A stretch of 64,000 nt of DNA, from assembly GCF_035961655.1 (NCBI RefSeq), contig NZ_CP108393.1:2463501-2527500 (forward strand), read 5' to 3'. This DNA is from Streptomyces sp. NBC_01317 (GTDB taxonomy: Bacteria > Actinomycetota > Actinomycetes > Streptomycetales > Streptomycetaceae). The position numbers were made by a program, and so were the translations under genes. Every line of letters begins with the position of its first letter. The first letter of the stretch is position 1. A model generated the notes under the pieces. That model was not told the origin of the DNA and ran no database searches. It was given only the letters and a program-made list of their open reading frames with translations. Positions 2,672 through 21,874 of the stretch are shown here, one piece after another.

Positions 2672-5600
2672 TCAGGCGGCCTTGTACGCCGCCGTCAGCT
2701 TCGCCACCGCACCGGACAGGTCACCGGTGAGCAGCAGGTGGTCCGCCTCGGCGAAGGGCTTCGCCGACGCGGCCGTCACGGACTGGCCGATCTTCTGCTG
2801 GACGAGGAGCCTGGCCTGGCCGACCAGTTCCTTGCCCTGCGCCGACTTGCCCAGCCCGGCCTTCTGGAGGATCTTCGCCGCGAGCCCGATCGCGGCGAGC
2901 GTGGCCTGGCCGCCCTTGGGGGGCGCCGTGAGGGTCGTCAGACCCCAGCCGTACGGGTACTGCGGGTCGTACGACGCGTCACCGACGTTGATCGGCAGCG
3001 ACTCGACCGTCTTCGGCCAGGTCAGCGGAAGCTGGCCGGTGAAGGCCCGCTTGCCGTAGAGGACGTCGGCGACGCCGTCGCCCTCCGTGCCCGGCAGCCA
3101 GGACGCCACGAGCGCGTCGATGTCGCCGAGCTGGTCGCCGATGAGCTGCGGGCGGCCCGCGACGACGAGGACGGCGCACTTCATGGCGGCGCAGACCGTG
3201 TCGACGGCCTTCTTGTCCTCGGCGCTCAGCGCCAGGTCGTGGCCGTTGCCGACGTCACCGATGCCTTCGGCGTACGGCTTCTCGCCGACGACGACCACTC
3301 CGACGTCGTAGCCGGCCGTGGGCTCGGTGGCGGTCTTGGAGTAGGTGAGGGTGGCATCCGGGGCCGCCTTCCTCATGCCCTCCAGGATGGTGGTGCCCGT
3401 GGTGGTCTTCCCCGAGGCGCCCTGCCAGCTGATGGTCCAGCCGCCCGCCTGATTGCCGAGGTCGTCGGCGTTGGAGCCGGCCACGTACACCTTCTGCGAC
3501 GGCTTGAGCGGCAGGACCGCGCCGTCGTTCTTCAGCAGCACCTGGGACTCGGCGGCGGCCTGGCGGGCCACCGCGCGGTGGGCGGCCGAGCCGATCTCCG
3601 CCTGGTGGGTGGTGTCCGCGTACGGCTTCTCGAAGAGGCCCAGCCTGAACTTCTGCTCCAGGATGCGGGAGACGGCGTCGTCGATCCTGGCCTGGGTGAT
3701 CCGGCCGGCCGCGACCTCCGCCTGGAGGGTCTGGGTGAAGGTCTTGTACTGCGTCGGGACCATGATCATGTCGAGCCCGGCGTTGACGGACGTGCGGACG
3801 TCGCTCGCGTAGTCGCCGGGGATCTGGTCGATCGCCTGCCAGTCGCTGATGACGAAGCCCTTGAAGCCCATCTTGTCCTTGAGCTCACCGTTGATCATCG
3901 CGCCGTCGGCGTGCATCTTGACGGGCGCCAGGTTGTCGTCGGTGATGTCCAGCGAGGAGTACGAGGGCATGACCGTGCCCACGCCCCGCTTCACGGCGTC
4001 CTTGAACGGCGCGAGGTGGACCTCCTCCAGCTCCTTGCGGGTGACCTTGGTGACGCCCTGGTCCAGGGTGTACGAACCGGTCGTGGAGGAGCCGTACTCG
4101 GTGCCGCCGTCGCCGACGAAGTGCTTGGCCGTGGCCAGCACCTTGTCGTTGCGGTCCAGGTCGCTGCCGGACGCCGGGCCCTGCATGCCGTTGACGACCG
4201 TGTCCAGGGAGGTCACCAGGGCGGGGTCCTCGCCGAAGGTCTCGTACGTACGGCCCCAGCGCTCGTCCCTGCCGACACAGACGCAGGGCGCGAAGTCCCA
4301 CGGGACGCCGGTGGCCCGCACCTCCTTCGCCGTGACCGCGCCGGTCTTCTCCGCCAGCGCCGGGTCACGGGTCGCCCCGAGGCCGATGTTGTGCGGCATG
4401 ATCGTCGCGCCGACGACGTTGTTGTGGCCGTGCACCGCGTCCACGCCGTAGATCAGCGGGATCTGGTAGCGGGTGGCCTGCGCCCTCAGCTGGAAGGCGT
4501 CGACCATCTTCGACCAGGCGGCGGGGGTGTTGGGCGTCGGCACGGAGCCGCCGCCGGAGAGCAGCGAGCCGAGGTCGTACGTGGCGATGTCGCCCTGGGC
4601 CGTGAGCGCGTTGCGCTCGGCCTGGGTCATCTGGCCGGCCTTCTCCGCGAGGGACATCCGGGAGACCAGGTCGCTGACCCGCCGCTTCACGGAGAGCTTG
4701 GTGTCGAGGTACGGCAGGCCGTGCGCGTCCACCACGACCTGCGGGTTCTCGACCGGCGGCTTGGCACCGGTGACGGTGAGCTTGAGCGGTACGGTCTCCG
4801 CGCTCTCACCGGCCCGGTCCTTGAGGGTCGGGATCTCGACGGTCCGCGAGGTGCCCGACGCGCTGCCGGCCGGGAAGGTGACCGTACCGGAGACGGGGGT
4901 GTAGTCCTTGCCCGCCTCGGCGGTGCCGCCCTCGGTGGTGTAGTCGACGGTCACGGGCTCGTCGACGGGGACGGAGCCGGTCGTCGCGACGGAGACCTTC
5001 ACCTGCGCGGTGGCGCCCTCCTTGACCGGGTACACCGCCGCGTCGGTGACGACGCCCGCCTTGAGGCTCGGGTCGGCCTTGCCGTACAACTCCACGCCGT
5101 CCAGGGCGAAGCGCCCGGGGGCGCCGGTGGGCATGGTGAAGGCGTAGCCCCACATCTCGGTCAGGCCGAGGACGTGGTCGATGCCGCCGACGGGCTGGTA
5201 GTCGGTGCGGTACTGGAAGTCCGCGAAGGGGATCTCGACCAGGTGCCACCCCTCCCAGTCGTCGGTGAAGGTCGTGTTCCAGAGCTCGGAGGCCTCGCCG
5301 TTGGCGCCGCCGTCCTTGATCTCGAAGGCGATCTTCTTGCCGGATCCGGGCGGCAGCGGCGCGGTGTTCTGGCCGTACCACCAGAAGCGGATGCCCCGGT
5401 GGGCCGACCAGTCGTGCGACGGCTTGTCGAAGGCGAAGTCGTGGCTGAACCCGCCGTACCCGCTGACGTTGTAGCTGCCTTCGAGGACCTTGGCGCCCTC
5501 GGGGGCGTCGGCGCGGTCCGCGATGCTCAGCGTGGGCGGGTCGTCGGCGTCCCCGCCCCAGGTGAAGATGCCCTCCGCGGGCGGGTTCGCGAAGGGGATC

Positions 5601-5758
5601 TCGCCCTCGAAGCGGTCGACGGCGACGGGGGCCGGGTCGTCCGCCGCGGTGGCGGACGACGCGGTTCCCGCGAGGGGCAGCAGCCCCGCCAGGACGGCGG
5701 CCGCGAGCAGCGCCGCCGTCCTGGTGCCCGGTCTCGGTCTGACACGTGTGCCTTGCAT
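2672..5758 (-). CDS. Secreted glycoside hydrolase family 3 with CBM11-like and Calx-beta modules
   Basis: A 1028-residue secreted enzyme with signal peptide at residues 1-39. Next is a CBM11/CIA30-like beta-sandwich (about 45-228: RFEGEIPF, FDKPSHDWSAHRGIRFWWYG, WEGWHLVEIPFADF). A Calx-beta module follows (about 232-330; AEAGKDYTPVSGTVTF is the classic signature). The GH3 N-terminal barrel spans about 355-700 and the GH3 C-terminal domain about 745-955. The nucleophile is Asp639 in VISDWQAID, and GVDAVHGHNNV and KHFVGDGGTEYG are typical GH3 substrate loops. About 70 extra helical residues close the protein. GH3 members of this layout are exo-beta-glucosidases, acting on beta-1,3- or beta-1,4-glucans. 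It is the last gene of the leftward glucan locus but is separated from GH16 by two strong hairpins, so it may have its own promoter. Confidence 0.93.
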   Translation of the reverse strand: MQGTRVRPRPGTRTAALLAAAVLAGLLPLAGTASSATAADDPAPVAVDRFEGEIPFANPPAEGIFTWGGDADDPPTLSIADRADAPEGAKVLEGSYNVSGYGGFSHDFAFDKPSHDWSAHRGIRFWWYGQNTAPLPPGSGKKIAFEIKDGGANGEASELWNTTFTDDWEGWHLVEIPFADFQYRTDYQPVGGIDHVLGLTEMWGYAFTMPTGAPGRFALDGVELYGKADPSLKAGVVTDAAVYPVKEGATAQVKVSVATTGSVPVDEPVTVDYTTEGGTAEAGKDYTPVSGTVTFPAGSASGTSRTVEIPTLKDRAGESAETVPLKLTVTGAKPPVENPQVVVDAHGLPYLDTKLSVKRRVSDLVSRMSLAEKAGQMTQAERNALTAQGDIATYDLGSLLSGGGSVPTPNTPAAWSKMVDAFQLRAQATRYQIPLIYGVDAVHGHNNVVGATIMPHNIGLGATRDPALAEKTGAVTAKEVRATGVPWDFAPCVCVGRDERWGRTYETFGEDPALVTSLDTVVNGMQGPASGSDLDRNDKVLATAKHFVGDGGTEYGSSTTGSYTLDQGVTKVTRKELEEVHLAPFKDAVKRGVGTVMPSYSSLDITDDNLAPVKMHADGAMINGELKDKMGFKGFVISDWQAIDQIPGDYASDVRTSVNAGLDMIMVPTQYKTFTQTLQAEVAAGRITQARIDDAVSRILEQKFRLGLFEKPYADTTHQAEIGSAAHRAVARQAAAESQVLLKNDGAVLPLKPSQKVYVAGSNADDLGNQAGGWTISWQGASGKTTTGTTILEGMRKAAPDATLTYSKTATEPTAGYDVGVVVVGEKPYAEGIGDVGNGHDLALSAEDKKAVDTVCAAMKCAVLVVAGRPQLIGDQLGDIDALVASWLPGTEGDGVADVLYGKRAFTGQLPLTWPKTVESLPINVGDASYDPQYPYGWGLTTLTAPPKGGQATLAAIGLAAKILQKAGLGKSAQGKELVGQARLLVQQKIGQSVTAASAKPFAEADHLLLTGDLSGAVAKLTAAYKAA

Positions 5759-5779
5759 GGTGCTCCTTGTGTCCCTGGT

Positions 5780-5809
5780 GCCCCCGGTGACTCTGGTGTC
5801 ACCGGGGGC
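5780..5809 (-). terminator. Stem-loop in front of GH3
   Basis: A 12-bp perfect stem GCCCCCGGTGAC (5780-5791) pairs with 5798-5809 across a six-base loop. It is the second of two tandem hairpins downstream of the GH16 gene, and lies about 20 bases upstream of the GH3 start. It could end the upstream transcript or be part of the GH3 5' leader. Confidence 0.6.
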
Positions 5810-5820
5810 GTAGCGGACCG

Positions 5821-5860
5821 GCCGGTGCCGGGGAGGGTGTCACCCCTCCCCGGCACCGGC
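5821..5860 (-). terminator. Strong terminator of the GH16 gene
   Basis: A 17-bp stem (5821-5837 with 5844-5860, six-base loop) sits six bases beyond the GH16 stop codon. It is one of the longest perfect stems in the window and would largely uncouple GH3 from the upstream operon. Confidence 0.8.
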
Positions 5861-5865
5861 TGGTC

Positions 5866-7761
5866 TTACTTCTGTTCGACCCGCACCCAGTCCACCTCGG
5901 CCTTGATCCCGCCCTGCGCGATGCGGTCGACGCTCGACTGCGGGAGGCCCCAGTAGGGCTGGGTGACCTTGTTCCAGCCGGCCGGATAGGCGCCGCCCAG
6001 AGCGAGGTTGAGGATCACGTACTGGTTGTGGTCGAAGACCCACTTGCCGCGGGTCGACTCCAGCTTCTGCCGGGAGGTCTCCTGCACCACACGGTCGTCG
6101 ACGGTGAAGCGCATGCCTTCCGGCAGCCACTCGACGGCGTACGTGTGCCACTGGTCGACGCGGCCGCCTCCCGGGAAGGTCTGGGTCTTGCCGATGTTGC
6201 CGTCGGCCGAGTAACCGGGCCCGTGCAGAGCGGTGCTGGTCCAGTCGCCGTAGCCGATGTTCTCCATGATGTCGGTCTCCCCCGAACCGGGCCAGGAGAC
6301 GGACGGGTTGTCCACGTCACTTCCGAGCAGCCAGAACGCCGGCCAGAAGCCGTCCCCGACGGGGAGCTTCAGACGGGCACTCACCTTGCCGTAGGTGAAG
6401 TCGAACTTGGTGTTGGTGTCGATGCGGCCCGACGTGAAGTCGTAGGTCCCGCCGCCCGGCACGGTCGTGCAGCCCTTGCAGTACTTGGACTCCAGGACCA
6501 GAGTGCCGTTCTCCGTACGGATGTTGTTGGCCGAGTCCACATACGCCTGGGACTCGCCGTTGACCGAGCCCATCTCCTGGCCGGTGCGCACCACGCGCCA
6601 CTTGTTGCGGTCGAGTCCGGAGCCGGTGAAGTCGTCGAAGAAGGTGGTGCGGTAGGCGCCGGTGGAGTTCTTCGGCAGGGCCGGGTAGGCGGCGTTGGCG
6701 CTGCCGCCGGTCCCCCAGACCTGGAACTCGTAGAGGGAGTAGCCGAATTGGGCGGTCGCCGGCGCCGGGTTGTAGAACGAGCGGCGCTCCTTGCCCAGCA
6801 TCCGTACGTAACGGCCGGTCGCCGGGGTGGGCAGGGTGATGGTGTCGCGCCGGCCGGCCGCCTCCCCCGGGGCCTTGATGTCGGCGCGGCGGGCCGCGAC
6901 GTCGGCGGCGGAGGGCCGGTAGACCGTGCGCCAGGTGCGGTTGTCGTCGGAGACCTGGAGTTCGTAGTCGACGGCGTAGGCCGCCTCCCAGTACAGGTCG
7001 ACCGCTTCGATGCGGGACGAGGCGCCCAGGTCGACCCCGACCCAGCGGTCCACGTTCCAGTCGCTGGCCCAGCGGGTCTGGTCGCCCTTGAGGTCGGCCG
7101 GCCAGCCGCCGTCGGTCACGTAGGCCGGTGAATTGCCCGCGTGCTGGTAGAGGTTGCCGTACGCGGGGTGGTTCAGGGCGAGGTTGGTACGGGTGGTGGA
7201 GGCGGGCGCCACGTCACCTCCGTACACCTGGAAGGAGAAGAGGGAGTAGCCCCACGCGGTGGCCCGCTGGACGCCGCGCAGCCGGACGTACCGGCCGGTG
7301 ACCTCCTGGGGGTAGGTGTGGGCGGTGACGGTGCCGCCGGTGCCGTCGGTCTCGGTGTAGAAGTTGGTCCAGTTGGTGCCGTCCTTGGAGATTTCGAGGA
7401 CGTACTGCTTGCCGTACGCGGCTTCCCATTCGAGCTTCACCTGGTTGACGCGCAGGGAGCTGCCCAGGTCGACCTGGATCCAGGCGTTGTCGGCGAACTC
7501 GCTGCCCCAGCGGGTCGCGGCATTGCCGTCGAAGGCTTTGCCTGGGCCGACGTCGGGGTTCTCGCTGCCCGAGGAGGTGACCCGGGCCGGGCTGATCGCG
7601 TAGGAGGCGGCGGCCTGGTCGGCGTTCCAGGGCGCGGCGGCCACCGCGGCGGCCTTCGCGGGGACCGCCCCGGGGGCGGCCGGGGGTGCGGCGAACGCGA
7701 GCGGTGCGGAGAGGGCCACCAGTGCGGCGGTGGTGGCGAGGAGTGTGGTGCGCGAGGGCAT
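5866..7761 (-). CDS. Secreted GH16 beta-1,3-glucanase with two F5/8-type C (discoidin) domains
   Basis: The ATG at 7759-7761 has a GGAGGCAACG ribosome site and gives 631 residues starting with a clear signal peptide (MPSRTTLLATTAALVALSAP). Two discoidin-like modules follow, at about residues 50-185 (TRWGSEFADNAWIQVDLGSS) and 190-345 (TRWASDWNVDRWVGVDLGASS). Both end in GYSLFSFQVYG / GYSLYEFQVWG. The C-terminal GH16 domain (about 365-631) holds the catalytic ExDxxE signature ETDIMENIG with Glu495, Asp497 and Glu500, followed by HTYAVEWLPEGMRFTVD. GH16 enzymes with this motif are mostly laminarinases or related endo-beta-1,3-glucanases. It lies 44 bases after the GH1 gene on the same strand, so the two are probably cotranscribed. 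The frame stays open upstream to 7935, but that overlaps GH1 and has no signal peptide. Confidence 0.93.
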   Translation of the reverse strand: MPSRTTLLATTAALVALSAPLAFAAPPAAPGAVPAKAAAVAAAPWNADQAAASYAISPARVTSSGSENPDVGPGKAFDGNAATRWGSEFADNAWIQVDLGSSLRVNQVKLEWEAAYGKQYVLEISKDGTNWTNFYTETDGTGGTVTAHTYPQEVTGRYVRLRGVQRATAWGYSLFSFQVYGGDVAPASTTRTNLALNHPAYGNLYQHAGNSPAYVTDGGWPADLKGDQTRWASDWNVDRWVGVDLGASSRIEAVDLYWEAAYAVDYELQVSDDNRTWRTVYRPSAADVAARRADIKAPGEAAGRRDTITLPTPATGRYVRMLGKERRSFYNPAPATAQFGYSLYEFQVWGTGGSANAAYPALPKNSTGAYRTTFFDDFTGSGLDRNKWRVVRTGQEMGSVNGESQAYVDSANNIRTENGTLVLESKYCKGCTTVPGGGTYDFTSGRIDTNTKFDFTYGKVSARLKLPVGDGFWPAFWLLGSDVDNPSVSWPGSGETDIMENIGYGDWTSTALHGPGYSADGNIGKTQTFPGGGRVDQWHTYAVEWLPEGMRFTVDDRVVQETSRQKLESTRGKWVFDHNQYVILNLALGGAYPAGWNKVTQPYWGLPQSSVDRIAQGGIKAEVDWVRVEQK

Positions 7762-7805
7762 CGTTGCCTCCGGGGTGGGGGGAGTGCGGGTGGGTGCGGT
7801 GCGTG

Positions 7806-9218
<1,413 letters not shown>

Positions 9219-9302
9219 GGGTCTCCTGGGTCAGGGGAAAGCACACGAGTGCGCGGGCGGGTGGGCGGAGGCGGTCGGGGCCGGTCCGGCGGTACGGGGT
9301 GC

Positions 9303-10328
9303 TCAGCCGGGGTCGGTGGGGGCGGGGTCGGGGGCGGGCGGGGTGTGGTGCAGCCAGCAGGCCACCGTGCGGTCGGGTTCACCCGGCGGCCCCGCGAGGA
9401 CCGGGACGTGGGACGGGCAGGGCGCGAACGCCTTGCCGCAGCGGGGGTGGAAGGCGCAGCCGGCGGGCATCGCGGTGAGGTGCGGGGGCGAGCCGGGAAT
9501 CCCGGTCAGCTCGCGGCGGGGGCCGTGCAGGGCGGGGAAGGAGTGCAACAGGCCGTCGCTGTAAGGGTGTCGGGGGTCGCGATAGATGTCGGCGGAGGCG
9601 GCCTCCTCGACGATCCGTCCCCCGTACATGATCGCGATCCGGTCGGAGAACTCGATCAGCAGCGAGATGTCGTGGGTGATGAAGACGACCGAGAAGCCCA
9701 GCTCCTCGCGGAGGCTGACGAGCTTGCGCAGGATCTGACGCTGCATCACCACGTCGAGGGCGGTGGTCGGTTCGTCCATGATGACGATCTCGGGCTCCAG
9801 GGCGAGGGCCATCGCGATCATCACGCGCTGCCGCATGCCGCCGGAGAGCTGGTGCGGATAGGCGGAGAGCCGGTCCTTGGAGATGCCGACGAGCGTGAGC
9901 AACTCCTCGGCGCGGGCGGTGCGTTCGGCCGCGCGCATCTGCGGGCGGTGGGCCTGGAGGACATCGGTGAGCTGGCTGTGGACGGTGTGCACGGGGTTGA
10001 GGGAGTTCATCGCGCCCTGGAAGACGATCGACAGCTCCTGCCAGCGGAAGGCCCGCAACTCCCGTGCGCCTAGCGCGAGAAGGTCGACCGGCTCCTGGTC
10101 CCATGGGTGGTAGTGGACGTCTCCCCCGGTGATCACCCCGGGCGGGGAGAGCAGCCGGGTCACCGCGTACGCGAGGGTCGACTTGCCGGAGCCGGACTCG
10201 CCGGCGAGACCGAGCACCTCGCCCCGGTGCAGGGTGAGGTCGACGGAGCGCAGGGCGTGCACGGCGTGGGTGCCGGTGCCGTAGTCGACATCGAGGCCGC
10301 GGATGGTCAGGACGGGACGGCCGGTCAT
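9303..10328 (-). CDS. ABC importer ATPase, OppD/DppD type
   Basis: The ATG at 10326-10328 overlaps the TGA of the permease gene by four bases, and the 341 residues that follow are one complete ATPase. Walker A is GESGSGKST, the signature LSGGMRQRV, Walker [13 protein letters not shown] and the switch histidine FITHDIS. The C-terminal oligopeptide-transporter extension carries the paired cysteines [22 protein letters not shown]. It energises import together with the OppF-type ATPase and two permeases in the same run. OppD and OppF naming only reflects family resemblance; the genomic setting points to beta-gluco-oligosaccharides rather than peptides. The frame is open further upstream, but that stretch is antisense-like and overlaps the permease. 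Confidence 0.92.
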
Positions 10329-11389
10329 GCGCGCGGCTCCTTGTCGGGCGTACGGGCGTCGGGCGCGGCGGAACCGGTCGTACGGGAGCCCGTCGTACCG
10401 GGGTCGGCCGTACGGGCGGCTTCCGCGGGGGCGCCGGTCCTGCGGGCCACCGGCGTGAAGCCGACCCGCATCCGCACCTTCCGGGACGCGCCCGTCTCCG
10501 TACGCAGCCGGGGGTTGATGAACTCGTCGATCCCGAAGTTGATCAGCGAGAGGGCCGCGCCGAGCAGGGCGATGCAGAGCCCCGCCGGGACGAACCACCA
10601 CCACGCGCCCTGCGCCAGCGCCTGGTTGGACTGGGCCCAGAACAGGACCGTCCCCCAGTTCCAGTTGGAGATGTCGGCGACCCCCGTGAAGGCGAGCGTG
10701 ATCTCCAGCAGGACGGCGAAGATGACCGTCCCGACGAAGCCGGACGCGATCACGGCGGTGAGGTTGGGCATGATCTCGAAGCAGATGATCCGCCAGGTGG
10801 GCTCCCCGGTCGCCCGCGCCGCCTCCACGTAGTCGCGGCGGCGCAGGGAGAGCGTCTGGGCGCGCAGGACCCGGGCGCCCCACGCCCAGGACGTGAAGGC
10901 GATCACCACGGCGATCAGCAGGTCACCCGCGTCCGAGACGAAGCTGGCGATGATGATGATCAGCGGCAGCGCGGGGATGACCAGGAAGATGTTGGAGAGC
11001 GCCGAGAGCAGCTCGTCCGCGACCCCGCCGAGGAAACCGGAGCTGACCCCGATCAGCACGGCGAGGACGGTCGCGAAGAATCCCGCCACGAATCCGACGA
11101 TCAGCACCCCGCGGGTGCCGACGAGGATCTGCGAGAGCACGTCCTGGCCGGTCTGGGTGGTGCCGAACCAGTGCGCCCCGGAGGGCGGCCGCAGGATCTC
11201 GTCGCTCATCCGGTCCGGGTCGTACGGCGCGATCCACGGGCCGATGACCGCCAGCAGGACGAAGAACCCGAGGATCGCCAGGCCGGTGACGGTCTTGCCG
11301 CCGCGCAGGAAGCGCAGCCGGGTGCGCCGGGCGGGGGCCGGGGTCAACGCCGTGTCGAGGACGGCGGCTTCGGCAGCGGTGACGGCCAT
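10325..11389 (-). CDS. ABC importer permease, OppC/DppC type
   Basis: A 354-residue inner-membrane permease. It has the OppC N-terminal helix (GLAILGFFVLLAVIGPWIAPYDP) followed by the typical HWFGTTQTGQDVLSQI loop. About six membrane helices follow in all, with a coupling motif around YVEAARATGEPTWRIICFEIMPN that docks on the ATPase. It overlaps the downstream ATPase by ATGA and starts three bases after the OppB-type gene. The C-terminal tail of about 55 residues, rich in Arg, Pro and Thr, is longer than in most relatives. It is part of the five-gene importer of the glucan locus. Confidence 0.92.
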   Translation of the reverse strand: MAVTAAEAAVLDTALTPAPARRTRLRFLRGGKTVTGLAILGFFVLLAVIGPWIAPYDPDRMSDEILRPPSGAHWFGTTQTGQDVLSQILVGTRGVLIVGFVAGFFATVLAVLIGVSSGFLGGVADELLSALSNIFLVIPALPLIIIIASFVSDAGDLLIAVVIAFTSWAWGARVLRAQTLSLRRRDYVEAARATGEPTWRIICFEIMPNLTAVIASGFVGTVIFAVLLEITLAFTGVADISNWNWGTVLFWAQSNQALAQGAWWWFVPAGLCIALLGAALSLINFGIDEFINPRLRTETGASRKVRMRVGFTPVARRTGAPAEAARTADPGTTGSRTTGSAAPDARTPDKEPRA

Positions 11390-11392
11390 GGC

Positions 11393-12369
11393 TCAGGCCT
11401 CCTTCCGGGTACGCGGATCGAGCAGCAGGTAGACCATGTCGGCCAGCAGGTTCGCCGCCAGCACCGAGAGCGTGATGATCAGGAAGACGCCCTGCATCAG
11501 CGGATAGTCCTTGGCCCCGACGGCCTGGAAGAGCTGATAGCCGATGCCCGGATAGGAGAAGACCATCTCCACCAGCAGCGTGCCGCCGACGATGAAGCCG
11601 AGGGAGAGGGCGAAGCCGGAGATGTTGGGGAGGATCGCGTTCCGGGCGGCGTACGAGAACATCACGCGCCGCTCCGACAGGCCCTTGGCCTGGGCGACCA
11701 TCACGTAGTCCTCGGAGGACACGGTCACCATCATGTTCCGCATCCCGAGGATCCAGCCCGCCACGGCGCTGAGCACGATCGTGACGCCCGGCAGGACGGA
11801 GTGGTAGAGGGCGCTGGAGAGGAACGGCACGTCGAAGGCGGGCACCAGCGAGCCGTCGTAGCCGCCCGAGGCCGGGAACAGCGGCCATTTCACGGCGAAC
11901 AGCGCGATGGCGATCAGGCCGAGCCAGAAGTACGGGATGGACGAGATGAAGGTGGTGACGGGCAGCAGCCCGTCCAGCCAGGAACCGCGCCGCCAGCCGC
12001 TGTAGACGCCGATGCCGGTGCCGAGCAGGAAGCTGATCAGGGTGGTGGTGCCGACCAGGGCCAGGGTCCAGGGCAGCGACTGGGAGATGACCTCGCTGAC
12101 CGGGGTGGGGAAGAAGGTGAACGACAGCCCCAGATCGCCCTGGAGGAGCTGCGACCAGTAGTCGGTGTACTGCTGCCAGAGCGAGCGCTCCTTGTCCAGG
12201 CCGAAGAGGGCCTTGAGGGAGTTGACGGCGCTGGTGTCGAGCTGGCCCTGGAAGCGGGCGATCAGGGCCTGGACCGGGTCGCCGGGCATCAGCCGCGGGA
12301 TCAGGAAGTTGATCGTGATCGCGGCCCAGGCGGTGACGGCGTAGAAGGTGAGCCGCTGGAGGACGTACT

Positions 12370-12373
<4 letters not shown>
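11393..12373 (-). CDS. ABC importer permease, OppB/DppB type
   Basis: GTG at 12371-12373 starts [20 protein letters not shown], the standard OppB N-terminal helix, and gives 326 residues. The start overlaps the upstream ATPase stop by GTGA. The family motif [13 protein letters not shown], a long periplasmic loop, and the coupling loop [25 protein letters not shown] are present, with about six helices. Together with the OppC-type protein it forms the channel of the importer. A longer frame continues to 12448 but lies inside the ATPase gene. Confidence 0.92.
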
Positions 12374-13517
<1,144 letters not shown>

Positions 13518-13521
<4 letters not shown>

Positions 13522-15191
13522 TTCGCCGCGGGCTTGAGGTGCAGCACGATGTCCAGCGAGTTGGGCTGGGTGGGCTGCGGGGGGCCGTACGGGTTCTCCT
13601 CGGTGGGCCAGCCGACCCAGTACTTGGTGGAGTACTCCGCGCCGATCGGGCCGGCCGCCGTCGGGATCATCGGCACCTCCTCGACCATGATCTTCTGGAG
13701 GGTGTTCATGGCCGCCGTACGGGCCGCGTCCTCGGTGGCGTTGGCGTACTCCCGCAGCGCCTTCGTCGCCTCGGGGCTGTCGAAGCGGCCGAAGTTGCCG
13801 AGCTGGGAGGCCTTGCCGACGGGCTGGAGCAGCTCCCCGTCCATGATGTTCTGGTACATGTCGTAGGGCGTCGGGCCGCTGTTGGTCCAGTGCAGCGTGG
13901 CGTCGAACTTGCCGTTGGTGACGTCCGACGTCCAGGACTCGGCGGTCTGGGTCTTGACCTTCGCCTCGATGCCGAGCTGCTTGATGTTGTCCTTGATGAT
14001 CGCGAGACCGGTGATGTAGTCGTTCCAGCCGGCCGGGTCCGTGAAGGTCAGGGAGACCGGCTTGCCCTTGGGGTCCTTGAGCACCCCGCCGTCGAGCTTG
14101 TATCCCGCCTCGGCCAGGAGCTTCTTCGCCCCGGCGACATCGGGCTTGACGGTGGCGTTCTTGTACTCGGGTGCGAGGAAGGAGTCACCGGCGGGCAGCG
14201 GGATGCCGGTCGGGTTGGTGATCTCCGGGTACAGCGTGGCCTGGGCCTGGACGTGGATGGCGCGGCGGTCGACCACCATCGCCATGGCCTTGCGCAGCGC
14301 CTTGTCGGCGAGCGGGCCCCGGGTGGTGTTGAACCACAGGCCGTGGATGCCGAGCCCGGAGGGGAACCAGAGCTTGTTGTTCTTGGGGTCCTTGGCGACG
14401 TACAGCTGCTTGTAGTTCGGCATGAAGACGAAGGACCACTGGGTCTGGCCGCTCGCCAGGGCCGTGGTCTGCGCGCTGTTGTCGTTGTACGACGTGTACC
14501 GCAGCTCCTTCACCTGGGTCGTGCCCTTCCAGTAGGAGGGCAGGGCGGTGAGGGTGGTGGTCTGCGGGGTGAACGTCTTGAGCTTGTACGGGCCCGAGCC
14601 GACGGGCGTCCGGTTGGGCCAGGTCGCCGGGTCCTTGACGGTCTCCCAGATGTGCTTCGGGACGACGTACGTCTGGAGGATCTTGTTCTGGTTGACGAAC
14701 TGGCTCTCCTTGAAGGTCAGGACGAGCTGGTCGCCCTGCGCCTCGATGCCGTCGAACTGGAGGCCGTTGCCGTTGAGCGCCGGGTACTTCTTCAGCAGTT
14801 CGAAGGTGAAGGCGGCGTCCTCGGCGGTCAGCGGCTTGCCGTCGGACCACTTGGCCTTGGGATCGATGGTGAAGGTGACCTTCGTGAAGTTGGACTCCCA
14901 CTCCCAGCCGGTCGCCAGCCAGGGCTTCGCCTTCTCGCTGGGGCGGATGAGGTTCGTCATCGCCAGCGGCTCGTAGATCATGTAGCGGTAGCCGAGCGAG
15001 GCGCCCGCCGACGTGCCCAGGAACGGGTTGCTGTTGTTGGTCTGGGGACCGTTCGGCATGCTGACGGTGAGCACACCCGACGCGCCGCCGGCCTTCCGGT
15101 TGGCATCCGAGTTGGCCGAGGAACATCCGGCGGCGAGCGCGGCCACGACGGTGGCGGCGGCCAGCGCCCGGAGCGTGCGGTGTGCGGACAT
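13518..15191 (-). CDS. Extracellular solute-binding lipoprotein, family 5 (SBP_bac_5)
   Basis: This 557-residue lipoprotein begins with a signal peptide and the lipobox LAAGC (Cys23 acylated), then a Ser/Asn linker. The family-5 binding-protein body contains [46 protein letters not shown] and the [17 protein letters not shown] signature. These proteins usually bind peptides, but a known branch binds oligosaccharides: as I recall, Thermotoga TM0031 binds beta-1,3/1,4-gluco-oligosaccharides. Here it heads the importer operon between a LacI repressor and a GH1 beta-glucosidase, so the sugar branch is favoured. A GGAG ribosome site precedes the ATG. Confidence 0.92.
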
Positions 15192-15301
15192 GGGGGTCTC
15201 CAGGAAGGACTACGGGTTCGGGCGGACAACTGCGCTGCGGTGCGTGCGGTGCAAGGCGGTGCGTGGGGTACAGGGCGTTGCGTGCGTGCGGTGCGCTGTC
15301 G
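15192..15301. repeat. GTGCGT-rich degenerate repeat between lacI-type gene and binding-protein gene
   Basis: The 110-base gap holds six or more imperfect copies of a GGTGCGTGCG-type unit between about 15235 and 15300. I see no clear operator or terminator in it, so the importer may be read from the regulator promoter or from a promoter hidden here. Confidence 0.45.
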
Positions 15302-16279
15302 TTACGGCGCCGACTGCCGGACGACGAGTTCGGTGGGCAGGACGACCGGTTCGTCGGGGGCGGCCGCCCCTCCGAGGTGTTCCAGGAGCATCCGCGCCGC
15401 CGTCTCGCCCATCTGCCGGGCGGGCTGGCGGACGGTTGTCAGCGGAGGCTCGGTGTGCCGGGCCATCGGGATGTTGTCGAAGCCGACCACGGCGATGTCG
15501 TCGGGGACGGTCCGCCCGGCGGCCCGCAGGGCCCGCAGGGCGCCGGCCGCGCTGATGTCGTTGTGCGCGAACACCGCGTCGAACGCGACCCGCCCGTTGA
15601 GGAGTTTCTCGACCGCGAGCCGTCCGGACAGCTCGGTGAAGTCGCCGACCACGACCCGGTCGGTGGGCAGGACGTGCCGGAAGCCGGCGAGCCGGTCCCG
15701 TACACACCCGAAGTGGGCCGGGCCTGTGATGACCAGCGGCTTTTTGCGTCCGTCGGCCAGCAGATGGCGGGCCGCCGACGCGCCTCCCTCGAAATTGGTG
15801 GTCACGACGGAGGGGAAGTCCTCGGGGTGACTGCCGCGGTCGTCGATCAGGACGACGGGCAGGCCCTGGCGGTGCAGGCCGATGATGGTGTCGAGGGTGT
15901 TCTCCGGTTCGACGACGAGCAGTCCGTCGAAGGCGCGGGCCGAGACCTGGGTGGTGAACCGCTGAACCGATTCAGCACCCCGGTTGCAGGTGAACAGCAG
16001 CAGCCCGTACCCCGCCGCCTCCACGGTGTCGACCACCCCTTGGAGCACCTCGCCCATCCACGGCCAGGTCAGCGAGGGCACCAGCATGCCGACCGTACGG
16101 CTGCTCCCGCGCGCCAGTCCGACGGCGCCCGAGCTGGGTACGTACCCGAGCTGCGCGATGACCGCGCGGACGCGGGCCGCCGTACCGCCGTCGACCTCGC
16201 CCTTGGTGTTGATGACGCGGGACACGGTCGTCTTGCTGACGCCCGCCTGGCGGGCGACGTCGGCGATCGTGACACGCAT
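15302..16279 (-). CDS. LacI family transcriptional repressor of the glucan locus
   Basis: A 325-residue LacI/GalR protein. The N-terminal helix-turn-helix is MRVTIADVARQAGVSKTTVSRVIN with the hinge LGYVPSSGAVGLARG. It is followed by the periplasmic-binding-like effector domain (VGMLVPSLTWPWMGEVLQGV, DGLLVVEPEN, AVFAHNDISAAGALRALR, DDIAVVGFDNIPMA). It lies directly upstream of, and codirectional with, the importer operon and divergent from GH30, which is the classic position of a local repressor. A CG-centred palindrome is found 37 bases upstream of its start. The inducer is probably an imported beta-gluco-oligosaccharide, by context only. Confidence 0.93.
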   Translation of the reverse strand: MRVTIADVARQAGVSKTTVSRVINTKGEVDGGTAARVRAVIAQLGYVPSSGAVGLARGSSRTVGMLVPSLTWPWMGEVLQGVVDTVEAAGYGLLLFTCNRGAESVQRFTTQVSARAFDGLLVVEPENTLDTIIGLHRQGLPVVLIDDRGSHPEDFPSVVTTNFEGGASAARHLLADGRKKPLVITGPAHFGCVRDRLAGFRHVLPTDRVVVGDFTELSGRLAVEKLLNGRVAFDAVFAHNDISAAGALRALRAAGRTVPDDIAVVGFDNIPMARHTEPPLTTVRQPARQMGETAARMLLEHLGGAAAPDEPVVLPTELVVRQSAP

Positions 16280-16301
16280 CGGGGCCTCCGCGTCGAGGTG
16301 T

Positions 16302-16338
16302 GGAACCGGTACCGCAACCGCTTCCGGAACCGGTACCG
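16302..16338. repeat. Two direct copies of GGAACCGGTACCG
   Basis: The 13-mer GGAACCGGTACCG occurs at 16302-16314 and 16326-16338, 24 bases apart, just upstream of the LacI-type gene. They bracket the candidate operator. Confidence 0.8.
16316..16335. promoter_or_regulatory. Candidate LacI-family operator
   Basis: AACCGCTTCCGGAACCGGTA has 8 of 10 symmetric pairs around a central CG step, the hallmark of LacI-family operators. It lies 37 bases ahead of the repressor start and in the divergent region shared with GH30, so it could serve autoregulation and GH30 control together. Confidence 0.5.
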
Positions 16339-16403
16339 GGCGTTGGGCGGTGAGTTAACCGGGAGGCAACACTGCCGTCAATACTTCACGTCGAGATTGG
16401 TCC

Positions 16404-16416
16404 GCACCTTTGGTGC
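16404..16416. promoter_or_regulatory. Palindrome GCACCTTTGGTGC near the GH30 promoter
   Basis: Five-base arms flank TTT. It lies about 150 bases before the GH30 start within the 284-base divergent intergenic region. It may be a second regulatory site; no factor can be assigned. Confidence 0.35.
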
Positions 16417-16563
16417 ATAGCAGGCCAGTAGCGGGCCAAGGGAGTTATGCGTTCAGGTTGTGAATGCGCCGCCCCTTGACGGGAGTTCGCAACAGCAGTT
16501 CACTCACGCCGCAGGCACCATCGCGTAACCCCCCACCTCTGTGCCAAGAAGGGCAGCAGTCAC

Positions 16564-18453
16564 ATGGCGAGATCGAGTGCTCAAGGACGGCGTCTGACGA
16601 GGGTCCTCCTCGCGGGCGCCCTGGCCACGGCCGGGCTCACCGGCCTGTCCGCCGGGCCGGCCCAGGCCGCCGGCGAGCAGGTCAACATCTATCTGACGAC
16701 CACGAGCGACGCGCGCGGCCGGGTCGTCACCCGGGGTCTCCAGCAGCAGACCCCCGTCAACTTCCAGGCGGGCAACGGCGGCAGCGGCACGAACGTGACC
16801 GTCGACGAGAACACCCGCTACCAGACGTTCACGGGCGGCGGCGCGTCCTTCACCGACACCGCCGCGTACCTGATGAAGGAGAGCGGCGCGCTCTCGCAGG
16901 CGACCCTCGACGCCACGATGAGGAAGCTCTTCTCCCCCACCGACGGCATCGGGCTCTCCTTCAACCGGAACCCGATGGGCGGCTCCGACCTCGCCCGCTT
17001 CGGCTACACGTACGACGACGTGCCGGCGGGTCAGACGGACCCCACGCTGTCGAAGTTCTCGATCGCCCACGACCTCCGGGCCGTGCTGCCGCTGACCAAG
17101 CAGGCGAAGCAGCTGAATCCGGCCATGACCAACGTGGCGTCGCCCTGGACCGCCCCCGCCTGGATGAAGGACAACGGGCAGCTCAACGGCGGCTGGCTGA
17201 AGGCGGAGAACTACGGCACGTACGCCGACTACTTCGTCAAGTACCTCCAGGCGTACCGCGACCAGGGCATCCCGATCGACTACGTCACGGCGCAGAACGA
17301 GCCGACGTGCTGCTCCAGTTACCCGTCGATGAGCTGGAACGGCTCCGGCCTGGCGTTCTTCACCAAGAGCAACCTGCTGCCCAAGCTCCAGGCCGCCGGC
17401 CTGCCCACCAAGGTGCTGGCGCACGACTGGAACTGGGACACGTACGACGCGTACGCCGCGGAGACCGTGAACGACCCGGCGGTCCGCAACCACCCGAACT
17501 TCGGCGGGGTCGCCTGGCACGGCTACGGCGGCGACATCGCCAAGCAGACCACCGTGCACAACCAGTACCCGACGATGGACGCGTTCCAGACGGAGCACTC
17601 CGGTGGCGAGTGGATCGCCAACCAGCAGCGCGAGGACATGAACAACATCATCGACTACACCCGTAACTGGGCGAAGTCGGTGACCAAGTGGTCCCTCGCG
17701 GTGGACCAGAACCGCGGTCCCCACAACGGCGGTTGCGGCACCTGCGACGGTCTGATCACGGTCCACAACGGCGACAGCCGGCACGGCCAGGTCGACTACA
17801 ACATCGAGTACTACACGATGGGCCACCTGACGAAGTTCGTGAAGCCGGGCGCCTCGCGGATCTCCTCCACCGCGAGCGGCACCGTCCCGAACGTGGCCTG
17901 GCGCAACACGGACGGCTCGAAGGCGCTGATCGCGTACAACGACGGCACCGCGGCGCAGACCCTGCGCGTCAACTGGGGCGGCCAGAACTTCAGTTACTCG
18001 CTCCCCGGCAAGACCTCGGCCACGTTCACCTGGTCGGGCACCCAGGCGGGCGGCGGGGGCGGCACCGGTGCGACGGGCACCTTCCGGGGCCTCGCCGACA
18101 AGTGCCTGGACGCGGCGGCCGGTTCGAGCGCCAACGGCACCGCCGTGCAGCTCTACGACTGCAACGGCTCGACGGCCCAGAACTGGACCGTCGGCACGGA
18201 CAACACCATCAGGACGCTCGGCAAGTGCCTGGACGTGACGGCGGCCTCCACGGCGGACGGCGCGAAGGTGCAGTTGTACGACTGCAACGGCTCCGCGGCC
18301 CAGCAGTTCACGTACAACTCCGGATCGGGCGACATCGTCAACCTCGGGGCGAACAAGTGCCTGGACGTGACGGGGAACTCGTCGGCGAACGGGGCCCGCG
18401 CGCAGATCTGGACCTGCACCGGGGCGTCCAACCAGAAGTGGCGCCTCCAGTAG
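16564..18453 (+). CDS. Secreted GH30 beta-glucanase with C-terminal ricin-type lectin (CBM13)
   Basis: A 629-residue secreted enzyme with a signal peptide ending near AQAAG. The GH30 domain (about 45-490) shows YQTFTGGGASFTDTAAYL at the start, acid/base Glu246 (VTAQNEPTCC) and nucleophile Glu344 (FQTEHSGGEW), plus the accessory beta-sandwich. After a GGGGGTGA linker comes a beta-trefoil lectin domain (about 503-629) with three KCLD...QLYDCNGS...W repeats. Characterised GH30 enzymes of this bacterial/fungal style include endo-beta-1,6-glucanases and glucosylceramidases; with GH16, GH3 and GH1 adjacent, beta-1,6-glucan of fungal walls is the likeliest target. The gene is divergent from the LacI-type gene, whose shared control region lies between them. 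Confidence 0.92.
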   Translation: MARSSAQGRRLTRVLLAGALATAGLTGLSAGPAQAAGEQVNIYLTTTSDARGRVVTRGLQQQTPVNFQAGNGGSGTNVTVDENTRYQTFTGGGASFTDTAAYLMKESGALSQATLDATMRKLFSPTDGIGLSFNRNPMGGSDLARFGYTYDDVPAGQTDPTLSKFSIAHDLRAVLPLTKQAKQLNPAMTNVASPWTAPAWMKDNGQLNGGWLKAENYGTYADYFVKYLQAYRDQGIPIDYVTAQNEPTCCSSYPSMSWNGSGLAFFTKSNLLPKLQAAGLPTKVLAHDWNWDTYDAYAAETVNDPAVRNHPNFGGVAWHGYGGDIAKQTTVHNQYPTMDAFQTEHSGGEWIANQQREDMNNIIDYTRNWAKSVTKWSLAVDQNRGPHNGGCGTCDGLITVHNGDSRHGQVDYNIEYYTMGHLTKFVKPGASRISSTASGTVPNVAWRNTDGSKALIAYNDGTAAQTLRVNWGGQNFSYSLPGKTSATFTWSGTQAGGGGGTGATGTFRGLADKCLDAAAGSSANGTAVQLYDCNGSTAQNWTVGTDNTIRTLGKCLDVTAASTADGAKVQLYDCNGSAAQQFTYNSGSGDIVNLGANKCLDVTGNSSANGARAQIWTCTGASNQKWRLQ

Positions 18454-18554: not shown

Positions 18555-20171
18555 TCACTCGGCCGGCTCGGCCCCGGCCCGCAGCAGACCGTACGTGTAC
18601 GCGTCCTCCAGCGCCTGCCAGGACGCCGCGATGACGTTCTCCGCGACCCCGAGCGTGGCCCACTCGGCCGTGCCGTCCGACGTGGTGACCAGCACCCGCG
18701 TGGTGGAGTCGGTGCCGTGCTTGCCCTCCAGGATGCGGACCTTGTAGTCCACCAGCTGGAACTTGGCGAGCTGCGGGTAGATCCGCTCCAGGCCGACCCG
18801 CATCGCCCGGTCCAGCGCGTTGACCGGGCCGTTCCCCTCGGCGGTGGCGACGATCCGCTCGCCCTTCGCCCAGATCTTCACCGTGGCCTCGTTGGCGTGG
18901 GTGCCGTCGGGGCGGTCCTCGACGATCGCCCGCCAGGACTCCGTACGGAAGTAGACGCGCGGCTTCCCCTCGGCCTCCTCGCGCAGCAGCAGCTCGAAGG
19001 AGGCGTCGGCGGCCTCGTACGTGTACCCCTGGAGCTCGCGCTCCTTGACCCGGCCGACCACCCGCGCGACCAGGTCGCGGTCGCCGCCGAGGTCGACGCC
19101 CAGCTCCTTGCCCTTGAGTTCGATGGAGGCGCGGCCCGCCATGTCGGAGACCAGCATCCGCATGGTGTTGCCGACCAGCTCGGGGGCGATGTGCTGGTAC
19201 AGGTCGGGGTCGACCTTGATCGCGGAGGCGTGCAGGCCGGCCTTGTGGGCGAAGGCCGAGACCCCCACGTACGGCTGGTGGGTGGAGGGGACGAGGTTGA
19301 CGACCTCGGCGATCGCGTGCGAGATCCGGGTCATCTCGGCGAGCGCGCCGGGGGGCAGGACCCGCTGGTCGTACTTGAGCTCCAGCGCGGCGACGACCGG
19401 GAAGAGGTTGGCGTTGCCGACGCGCTCGCCGTAGCCGTTGGCCGTGCACTGGACGTGGGTGGCGCCCGCGTCGACGGCGGCGAGGGTGTTGGCGACGGCG
19501 CAGCCCGTGTCGTCCTGGGCGTGGATGCCGAGCCGGGCGCCGGTGTCGGCGAGGACGGTGGCGACGACGGCCTGGATCTGGGCGGGCAGCATGCCGCCGT
19601 TCGTGTCGCAGAGGACCACGACATCGGCGCCGGCCTCGGCGGCGGCCCGTACGACGGACTTGGCGTACTCGGGGTTGGCGCGGTAGCCGTCGAAGAAGTG
19701 CTCGCAGTCGACGAAGACGCGGCGGTCCTGCCCGCGCAGGTACGACACGGTGTCGCGGATCATCGCGAGGTTCTCGTCGAGGGTGGTGCGCAGCGCCAGT
19801 TCGACATGGCGGTCGTGCGACTTGGCGACCAGGGTGACCACCGGGGCGCCGGACTCCACGAGCGCCCTGACCTGCGGGTCCTCGGAGGCCTTGGCGCCGG
19901 GGCGGCGGGTGGAGCCGAAGGCGACGAGCTGGGCGTGCCGGAAGTCGATCTCCTGCCGGGCCCGGGCGAAGAACTCGGTGTCGCGCGGGTTGGCCCCCGG
20001 CCAGCCGCCCTCGATGAAGCCCACGCCGAATTCGTCCAGGTAGCGTGCGATGGCCAGCTTGTCGGCGACCGTCAGGTTGATGCCTTCGCGCTGGGCGCCG
20101 TCCCGCAGCGTCGTGTCGAAGACATGAAAACTGTCGTCGTTCCCCGTGGGCCCCGTGGACTCTGTGGTCAT
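18555..20171 (-). CDS. cimA: (R)-citramalate synthase
   Basis: A 538-residue member of the isopropylmalate/citramalate synthase family. The barrel begins with FHVFDTTLRDGAQREGINLT (metal and substrate site) and contains FIEGGWPGANPRD, GIHAQDDTGCAVANTLAAVDAG (metal histidines) and GYGERVGNANL. The C-terminal allosteric LeuA dimer domain follows (about 400-530). The long LeuA-like HAQDDTGCA and ...GWPGANPRD forms mark the CimA branch, which condenses pyruvate and acetyl-CoA to citramalate for threonine-independent isoleucine synthesis. It is a single leftward gene. Its 5' leader encodes an Ile-Ile peptide and an attenuator hairpin, which strongly supports the isoleucine assignment over leucine. 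Confidence 0.92.
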   Translation of the reverse strand: MTTESTGPTGNDDSFHVFDTTLRDGAQREGINLTVADKLAIARYLDEFGVGFIEGGWPGANPRDTEFFARARQEIDFRHAQLVAFGSTRRPGAKASEDPQVRALVESGAPVVTLVAKSHDRHVELALRTTLDENLAMIRDTVSYLRGQDRRVFVDCEHFFDGYRANPEYAKSVVRAAAEAGADVVVLCDTNGGMLPAQIQAVVATVLADTGARLGIHAQDDTGCAVANTLAAVDAGATHVQCTANGYGERVGNANLFPVVAALELKYDQRVLPPGALAEMTRISHAIAEVVNLVPSTHQPYVGVSAFAHKAGLHASAIKVDPDLYQHIAPELVGNTMRMLVSDMAGRASIELKGKELGVDLGGDRDLVARVVGRVKERELQGYTYEAADASFELLLREEAEGKPRVYFRTESWRAIVEDRPDGTHANEATVKIWAKGERIVATAEGNGPVNALDRAMRVGLERIYPQLAKFQLVDYKVRILEGKHGTDSTTRVLVTTSDGTAEWATLGVAENVIAASWQALEDAYTYGLLRAGAEPAE

Positions 20172-20263
20172 GGTGTCCTGCTCCTGTTGAGTGGATGGTC
20201 TGGCTCCACCTGCCCCCGTCTCCCCGCGCGGTCCGCCTCCGGCCGGGGTGGGGCCGGAAAACG

Positions 20264-20289
20264 AAAAAACCCCTCGCGGATGCGAGAGG
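20264..20289 (-). terminator. Transcription attenuator upstream of cimA
   Basis: Reading leftward, CCTCTCGC-ATCC-GCGAGGGG forms an eight-pair stem (one G-U) followed by TTTTTT, about 93 bases ahead of the cimA start and 54 bases after the leader peptide stop. A factor-independent terminator located inside a 5' leader, before the gene, is the mark of attenuation. Confidence 0.85.
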
Positions 20290-20342
20290 TCTGCGCGCGG
20301 GTCCGAGGCTCGATGTCCGCTCCGTACTGGTCTACGGGGCGG

Positions 20343-20378
20343 TCACTGCGGACCGGCGCGCTTGCTGCCAATAATCAT
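20343..20378 (-). CDS. cimA leader peptide MIIGSKRAGPQ
   Basis: An 11-codon frame, ATG ATT ATT GGC AGC AAG CGC GCC GGT CCG CAG TGA, ends 54 bases before the attenuator hairpin. Two adjacent isoleucine codons, both the very rare ATT in this GC-rich genome, would stall a ribosome when charged Ile-tRNA runs short. No clear Shine-Dalgarno site precedes it, so translation may be leaderless or weak. Its end (GSKRAG) resembles the GKRVG end of the ilvB leader peptide in this same window, which suggests shared ancestry or shared folding needs. Too short for standard gene callers. Confidence 0.75.
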   Translation of the reverse strand: MIIGSKRAGPQ

Positions 20379-20479
20379 GACGAACGAGAGCACGAGCCGA
20401 TTTTCGCACGTCTCGTCACTTTACGGTGCCCTGTCTCACGATGCGGTCGATCATCTTCCGGCCCTCCGGCGCGGCGGGG

Positions 20480-20507
20480 CCCGCATCCCGGGGGTGCGGG
20501 ATGCGGG
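20480..20507 (-). terminator. Terminator of ilvE
   Basis: A perfect 11-bp stem, CCCGCATCCCG (20480-20490) with 20497-20507, about 50 bases past the ilvE stop. Between the stop and the stem lie degenerate direct repeats of ACCAGGTCAG. Confidence 0.7.
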
Positions 20508-20554
20508 TCCTCGTACGGACGACCAGGTCAGGCCAACCAGGTGAGACCAACAGG

Positions 20555-21646: not shown

Positions 21647-21827
21647 GAATACTCTCGTCCTTCACCGGTTGTGTGTGACGGACCGCGTTCACGCCGCTAC
21701 AGCCCTACTAGGACGTCCGAGTATGCGGGCGGGCGACCGCCCCGCCGTGGAGAGCGGGGCGTGGGTGTAACCGGAACGAGTGAATGCGGTCCTGGGATGA
21801 TGGTGTCACCCGGAGGCCGCAAAAGCA

Positions 21828-21857
21828 CAGCCGCCGGGTCACAGGACCCGGCGGCTG
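21828..21857 (-). terminator. Terminator of leuB
   Basis: A 13-bp perfect stem CAGCCGCCGGGTC (21828-21840) with 21845-21857 and a four-base loop, followed leftward by TTTT. It lies 17 bases beyond the leuB stop. Confidence 0.85.
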
Positions 21858-21874
21858 TCGGAAGTCGCGGCGGG

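Follow-up and report, generated by a model that had tools for sequence, protein, structure and literature searches.

A block of genes at positions 2672–18453 of the window, a 64,000-nucleotide stretch of the Streptomyces sp. NBC_01317 genome (8.07 Mb, one contig), appears, with a probability of roughly three in four, to constitute a beta-glucan import-and-digest system with LacI control of its importer genes. Pfam searches and open reading frame (ORF) analysis place in this block glycoside hydrolases (GH) of families GH3, GH16 and GH1, a five-gene Opp/Dpp-type ATP-binding cassette (ABC) importer, a lacI gene and a divergent GH30 gene, confirming the composition given in the original prediction. 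The accompanying proposal, that beta-glucan is taken up and digested through an importer of the kind usually annotated for peptides, is supported at the level of sequence only, by the subgroup of the solute-binding protein (SBP), its sugar-site residues, the recurrence of a partner from a beta-glucosidase family and a precedent in Thermotoga maritima. The features that carry the argument are read from the DNA itself, namely gene content and order, the sugar-binding subgroup and sugar-site residues of the SBP, and the conservation and position of a 12-bp repeat array upstream of lacI. The block is not a chance assembly, since it is found again in dozens of genomes.

In the proposed scheme, the secreted GH16 (endo-1,3), GH30 (endo-1,6 type) and GH3 (exo) enzymes would degrade glucan of the laminarin or fungal-wall type into short gluco-oligosaccharides, which the family-5 lipoprotein would capture and hand to the OppBCDF importer, and the cytoplasmic GH1 would hydrolyse the imported oligosaccharides to glucose. 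LacI, acting on the 12-bp array after its own promoter, would repress lacI and the co-directional SBP-oppFBCD-GH1(-GH16) genes, and the effector releasing it would be either one of the imported oligosaccharides or a GH1 product. GH30 and GH3 may be under the same control. The sugar itself would most likely be beta-1,3-linked, and perhaps 1,6-linked.

The solute-binding protein and importer type

All features from GH3 through the lacI promoter are given on the minus strand, and GH30 and its promoter on the plus strand. The SBP gene (13518–15191) encodes a lipoprotein of the SBP_bac_5 family, with a lipobox LAAGC as judged by eye, that sequence and fold comparisons assign to the sugar-binding subgroup of family-5 SBPs. 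Its 14 nearest PDB sequences are oligosaccharide binders scoring at least 147 bits, and the next match scores 85 bits; these 14 represent some five proteins, as several entries are mutant forms of a single Vibrio protein, and include the Vibrio chitooligosaccharide binders with their mutants and T. maritima TM1223, TM1226 and tmCBP. A profile of 14 orthologs returned the same 14 sequences at E ≤ 1e-40, all oligosaccharide binders when 8i5j is counted as one by its near-identity to 1zty. Foldseek ranked the same binders 1 to 17 (9.3e-37 to 1.1e-30), with NikA next at 2.5e-27.

The binding site provides further support. Alanine mutants D365A, W363A and N204A of the Vibrio protein VhCBP lose 8.6, 4.7 and 2.1 kcal/mol, respectively, as given in the excerpted text of PMC8449061, and these residues align with D391, W389 and N238 of the window SBP (codons at 14019–14021, 14025–14027 and 14478–14480), the equivalences being drawn from alignment with VhCBP and not with tmCBP. 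All three are invariant in 63 of 63 sequences (the window and 62 orthologs), a count that leaves out the SBPs of loci L048 and L062 for an internal stop or split match. The 11 further family-5 SBPs of the same genome that were aligned all lack the three residues, and one of them (L143) has Tyr at the Trp389 column; this comparison covered 15 stretches with other family-5 SBPs, those of L152–L155 staying unaligned for want of a profile match at 1e-10.

The remaining importer genes encode an OppD-type ATPase (9303–10328; ABC_tran, oligo_HPY), an OppC-type permease (10325–11389; BPD_transp_1, OppC_N), an OppB-type permease (11393–12373; BPD_transp_1) and an OppF-type ATPase (12370–13521; ABC_tran, oligo_HPY). 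The importer thus combines an SBP_bac_5 protein, an OppC_N permease and two oligo_HPY ATPases, and not the SBP_bac_1-type SBP and MalK-type ATPase that identify a CUT1 importer. Sugar uptake in Streptomyces proceeds mainly via CUT1-type importers, and an Opp-type sugar importer appears unusual in this CUT1-rich genus, although the type has precedents elsewhere.

A second sugar-type family-5 importer is present in the window's genome (L157, G000:C1:876000-895900) among Gfo/Idh/MocA and ThuA genes. At the sugar-site columns its SBP (G000:C1:885576) carries Asn, Tyr and Asp, and the importer possibly belongs to an oxidative disaccharide pathway.

Conservation of the locus across genomes

A genome scan for relatives of the locus yielded 65 loci, in which genes were called with a simple in-house script; L065 was excluded as a non-ortholog (26% identity). 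Ten of the 65 miss part of the region from LacI to oppD, mostly at the ends of the available sequence. Among the 55 that span it, the order lacI-SBP-oppF-oppB-oppC-oppD-GH1 is found in 51 of 51 having all seven genes; in the other four, which lack GH1, the available sequence stops within 30 bp of the oppD match. The glycosidases around this core vary. Of 47 loci, 12 have a GH16 after GH1, 35 have a GH3 there and 12 have neither, and a divergent GH30 occurs in 17 of the 57 loci with enough sequence. The regulator, importer and GH1 form a conserved core, and GH16, GH3 and GH30 are variable accessories. The region 17457–20120 of L061, considered as a GH16 gene, proved to contain F5/8 domains only.

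At E ≤ 1e-120 the SBP has orthologs in 17 of 121 Streptomyces, 25 of 147 genomes of the order and 15 of 296 of the class (sampled genomes, own included). A different family of the order has both the core and the array in six genomes (L158, L160–L164), and they are also present in Rugosimonospora (L061), Umezawaea (L056) and genome G436 (L173), where a GH30 gene lies directly 3' of GH1. In L052, L120 and L165 the divergent gene encodes a GH16 enzyme with a lectin domain. In a further family of the same class (f38), eight loci were found, and all six that were read have GH3 in place of GH1 beside the importer; a LacI ortholog was called in none of these six.

The operator-like array and promoters

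The lacI gene (15302–16279) encodes a presumed repressor with a PF00356 helix-turn-helix and a PF13377 sugar-binding domain. Positions 16302–16337, 22 bp before its start, hold an operator-like array of three 12-bp units head to tail, GGTACCGGTTCC, GGAAGCGGTTGC and GGTACCGGTTCC, preceded by a predicted lacI promoter, TTGACG-N17-TTAACT (16353–16381), that could be aligned in 18 sequences. Such units, two to four head to tail, were found in 59 of 59 lacI promoters with 150 bp available, the window included: two units in 22, three in 35 and four in 2, or 157 units with a period of 12. Because the unit filter came from these same loci and prescribes seven of the 12 positions, part of this conservation is built in; at the filter-free positions 2 and 5, G is found in 153 and C in 155 of the 157 units. 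Loci L017 and L041 had too little sequence upstream of lacI and were left out, and L056, counted as two units of which one is degenerate, was the locus missed by a stricter pattern (57/58). Three or more units occurred in none, and two units in five, of 1232 random segments taken from these loci. Across the 65 loci and the window, the lacI promoter is the only place with a two-unit copy when at most one mismatch is allowed, and a looser pattern gave two matches away from lacI in nine loci (L159, L163). A TTGAC-N17-TTAAC-type promoter precedes the array in 56 of 61 cases. The array thus lies just after the predicted lacI promoter, the place of a classical repressor site, and is the candidate binding site of LacI.

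The distribution of the array across genomes follows that of the importer. A strict array pattern occurs in 19 of 121 Streptomyces genomes (backward control pattern, 2 of 121); taking the array and SBP genome sets, 121 each, as identical, it is found in all 16 other genomes with the importer and in 3 of the 104 without it, 84 of these negatives being counted without a listing by name. The window's own array, with one variant unit, falls outside the strict pattern, and the window's genome has only one array beside a lacI. A lacI ortholog adjoins the array in 18 of the 19 array-positive genomes and is absent at the array in importer-negative G032. Genome G111 (L117, G111:C6:76000-95000) has a lacI relative (71% over 330 residues) with an array, and the importer is not beside it. 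Genome G112 (L118, G112:C110:8000-27000) is a natural deletion that keeps lacI, the array and GH30 and has lost the importer, GH1, GH16 and GH3 from the locus. This locus hints that GH30 belongs to the LacI regulon. The predicted GH30 promoter of the window (TTGACG-N17-TTCACT, 16476–16504), largely conserved in the divergent-promoter alignment (n=18), has no array.

Between lacI and the SBP gene there are 110 bp in the window. The 8-mer most shared among these gaps is a ribosome-binding-site-like end (51/59), and the single promoter pattern tried there was found in 0 of 59; lacI and the importer genes are therefore probably transcribed together, judging by this sequence. In the same gap, GAGAGCGCTCTC palindromes occur twice in L052 and once in L056 and are absent from the window. 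They resemble CebR-type boxes, and a second regulator is possible in some species.

Glycosidases and gene arrangement

N termini resembling signal peptides are present on GH3, GH16 and GH30 and absent from GH1 (judged by eye), in agreement with the predicted division into secreted and cytoplasmic enzymes. GH16 (5866–7761, start set at MPSRTT, 7761, instead of 7935) is of the endo-beta-1,3-glucanase type, with the anticipated ETDIME motif in place and two F5/8 (CBM32-like) domains; its best PDB matches are 2vy0, 4dfs and 3azx, and it is nearest to beta-1,3-glucanases and laminarinases. The nearest PDB relatives of its first F5/8 domain, 4zy9 and 2rv9, are chitosan-binding domains of a glucanase/chitosanase, making fungal-wall targeting through this domain possible. 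GH3 (2672–5758), of the exo-beta-glucosidase/glucanase type, has 5m6g beta-glucosidase and barley ExoI as best PDB relatives, and carries a Calx-beta domain and a carbohydrate-binding module of family CBM11, which binds beta-1,4 and mixed-linkage glucan. GH1 (7806–9218), whose best PDB match is 1gnx, is assigned as a beta-glucosidase by TIGR03356 at 591 bits, above the cut-off of 478.5. GH30 (16564–18453) is GH30_3-like (endo-beta-1,6-glucanase type) with a ricin-type lectin domain; its best PDB match is 5ngk/BT3312, an endo-1,6-beta-glucanase, and its best NCBIfam match, NF053856 endo-1,6-beta-glucanase, scores 276 bits, below the cut-off of 700. In the alignment it keeps the BT3312 catalytic Glu pair, D131, H281, D286, W345, W377 and the C393/C396 pair, residues whose functional roles are given in the excerpted text of PMC5481569.

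The importer genes most likely form a single transcription unit, since three of their junctions overlap by 4 bp and the fourth leaves 3 bp between genes. GH1 starts 84 bp and GH16 44 bp after the preceding gene. The 107-bp gap between GH16 and GH3 has two very stable predicted hairpins (5756–5872; z −10.2, none of 200 shuffles equally stable), which possibly attenuate or end the transcript before GH3.

Beyond GH30, window positions 18555–22921 encode a citramalate synthase (TIGR00977), ilvE and leuB, a branched-chain amino-acid block that is the neighbour both in the window and at many of the 65 loci. These genes are outside the beta-glucan block.

Weighing of the alternatives

Several observations count against the import-and-digest interpretation. 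VIA-align Z scores do not separate sugar binders (29.3) cleanly from nickel binders (27.6), with tmCBP itself at 25.0, and the SBP structure model is of moderate quality, with a predicted local distance difference test (pLDDT) score of 70.6. VhCBP F437 (4.1 kcal/mol) aligns with a Gln and W513 (4.2 kcal/mol) with no residue of the SBP, and the F411 equivalent is likewise lost; since F411 and W513 are contacts of the N-acetyl group, their loss fits a ligand without one, and with these three losses the site is not a copy of the VhCBP site. To these are added the reliance of the residue equivalences on VhCBP, the derivation of the unit filter, the absence of an array from the GH30 promoter, the low presence of GH30, and the loci with neither GH16 nor GH3 after GH1. 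The GH30 enzyme has Ser at BT3312 Asn244 and Asp at Asn282. Given the hairpins, GH3 may be read separately. A uniform function is further called into question by a GH2 enzyme beside the importer in L176 and by Gfo/Idh and xylose-isomerase-like genes in L059, contexts in which the subgroup may carry more than beta-glucan oligomers, and an M9 collagenase and a kumamolisin-type peptidase flank the otherwise typical core of L160.

The last two genes, secreted peptidases, together with the Opp/Dpp domain names and the database names of the SBP orthologs (peptide or plain ABC transporter SBPs among the best 120 of 1338), would suit an importer of peptides to which the glycosidases are mere neighbours. 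This is very improbable in view of the placement of the SBP by sequence, profile and Foldseek, the sugar-site residues that its aligned ordinary paralogs lack, and the GH1 or GH3 partner across families. There is a modest chance that other or broader beta-glucosides are imported, such as cello-oligosaccharides, mixed-linkage beta-glucan or sophorose, and not mainly beta-1,3/1,6-linked ones, as the CBM11 on GH3 would allow; on the other side, GH16 has its closest relatives among beta-1,3-glucanases and laminarinases, the closest relative of GH30 is the endo-1,6-beta-glucanase BT3312, and the divergent gene of L052, L120 and L165 encodes a GH16 with a lectin domain instead. The array, for its part, might be a mere by-product of tandem repetition or might bind a factor other than LacI, since its units are near-identical head-to-tail repeats, as from slippage, and a 12-bp run at G000:C1:269114 lies away from any called lacI ortholog. 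The chance of this appears small, as the period stays 12, always after the lacI promoter, down to ~46% SBP identity, with a lacI ortholog beside the array in nearly all array-positive genomes and a unit that matches the GNAANCGNTTNC form of LacI operators. For the broader range of glucosides, excerpted text of PMC3850815 has tmCBP binding both beta-1,4 and beta-1,3 oligomers, and that of PMC12369401 describes a separate GH1 and importer for beta-1,2-glucan in S. griseus. The same portion of PMC3850815 lists laminaribiose and laminaripentaose as ligands of T. maritima tmCBP, in line with the earlier statement that family-5 SBPs can bind gluco-oligosaccharides.

Search for further array targets

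Within the window's genome, the two-unit pattern with one mismatch returned 18 rows, against 14 for the backward pattern, of which two are at the lacI promoter and six in one dense run at G000:C1:269114-269161. This run (L073, 7115–7210) comprises about eight increasingly degenerate 12-bp units, the four clearer of which lie 47–94 bp past the stop codon that ends a SpoIIE-domain ORF, with a DUF1996 gene starting ~0.5 kb further downstream. An origin as repetitive coding sequence is not supported for this run, which may be a second target or a chance repeat. The single 12-mer was not enriched genome-wide (29 rows, 39 in the control). Five of the 29 single-12-mer rows and one further two-unit row were inspected: the sites in L074, L075 and L076 fall within called ORFs that are unrelated in kind, the row in L079 overlaps a called ORF, and at L077 and L078 the gene filter called none at the site. 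A wider regulon, for which no second target was established among the sites inspected, was accordingly set aside, although weak sites may exist.

Implications

What is new here, as far as sequence can tell, is the conserved 12-bp operator-like arrays before lacI. A more specific proposal, an actinobacterial laminari/gentio-oligosaccharide importer whose single LacI reads two to four overlapping 12-bp operators, is put forward tentatively and is at present doubtful. If it is true, the 12-bp spacing should make ordinary LacI dimers clash, and LacI could then bind only by occupying the units in alternation, by a novel stacking of dimers or by distortion of the DNA; unit number would then tune induction between species. 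The natural two-, three- and four-unit variants make the question of overlapping LacI sites directly testable. The analysis also offers a likely function for a transporter named as peptide or generic in databases, with an ortholog in about one in seven of the sampled Streptomyces (17/121), and N238, W389 and D391 together with the array provide a signature for finding such importers. Beta-1,3/1,6-glucan is a major polymer of fungal walls and of algal storage, so that the locus is relevant to the lysis of fungi and to carbon in soil.

Comparison with known systems

No publication on this locus was found in the open-licence literature; one may exist elsewhere, and the regulon may be predicted in RegPrecise. 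The Streptomyces CUT1 sugar importer CebEFG shares the logic of a LacI regulator, a sugar ABC importer and a beta-glucosidase, and differs from the present system, in which the SBP is of the SBP_bac_5 family and the importer has two Opp-type ATPases of its own. VhCBP is the nearest solved SBP by sequence and has the equivalents of W363, D365 and N204 in common with the window protein, whereas those of F411, F437 and W513, including the two N-acetyl contacts, are lost and the block has no chitin gene. The 1,6-beta-glucan polysaccharide utilization locus of B. thetaiotaomicron contains BT3312, the nearest relative of the window GH30; here, in contrast, import is by ABC transporter instead of SusCD, a lectin domain is added, and Asn244 and Asn282 are replaced by Ser and Asp.

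The excerpted text of PMC4052901 describes overlapping LacI-family sites ~13 bp apart in 110 operons, hard to reconcile with known structures. Like the sites covered in that excerpt, the present units are overlapping palindromes with a central CG, before an apparently autoregulated local repressor; unlike them, they have a period of 12, come as two to four consecutive units and are kept across several actinobacterial families. The closest system is the T. maritima BglR operon, bglREFGKL-TM0026-bglB-lamA in the excerpted text of PMC3750489, which likewise combines a local regulator, a family-5 SBP with an Opp-type importer, a beta-glucosidase and a laminarinase, and whose SBP, tmCBP, belongs to the same sugar-binding subgroup as that of the window. 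The window locus differs in having GH1 next to the importer, a divergent GH30 and the 12-bp array before lacI, and, because its regulator is of the LacI and not the ROK family, it is not a member of the BglR-type operons. The principle is thus known from T. maritima, and the locus described here is a variant of it in an unusual host group with an unusual regulatory site.

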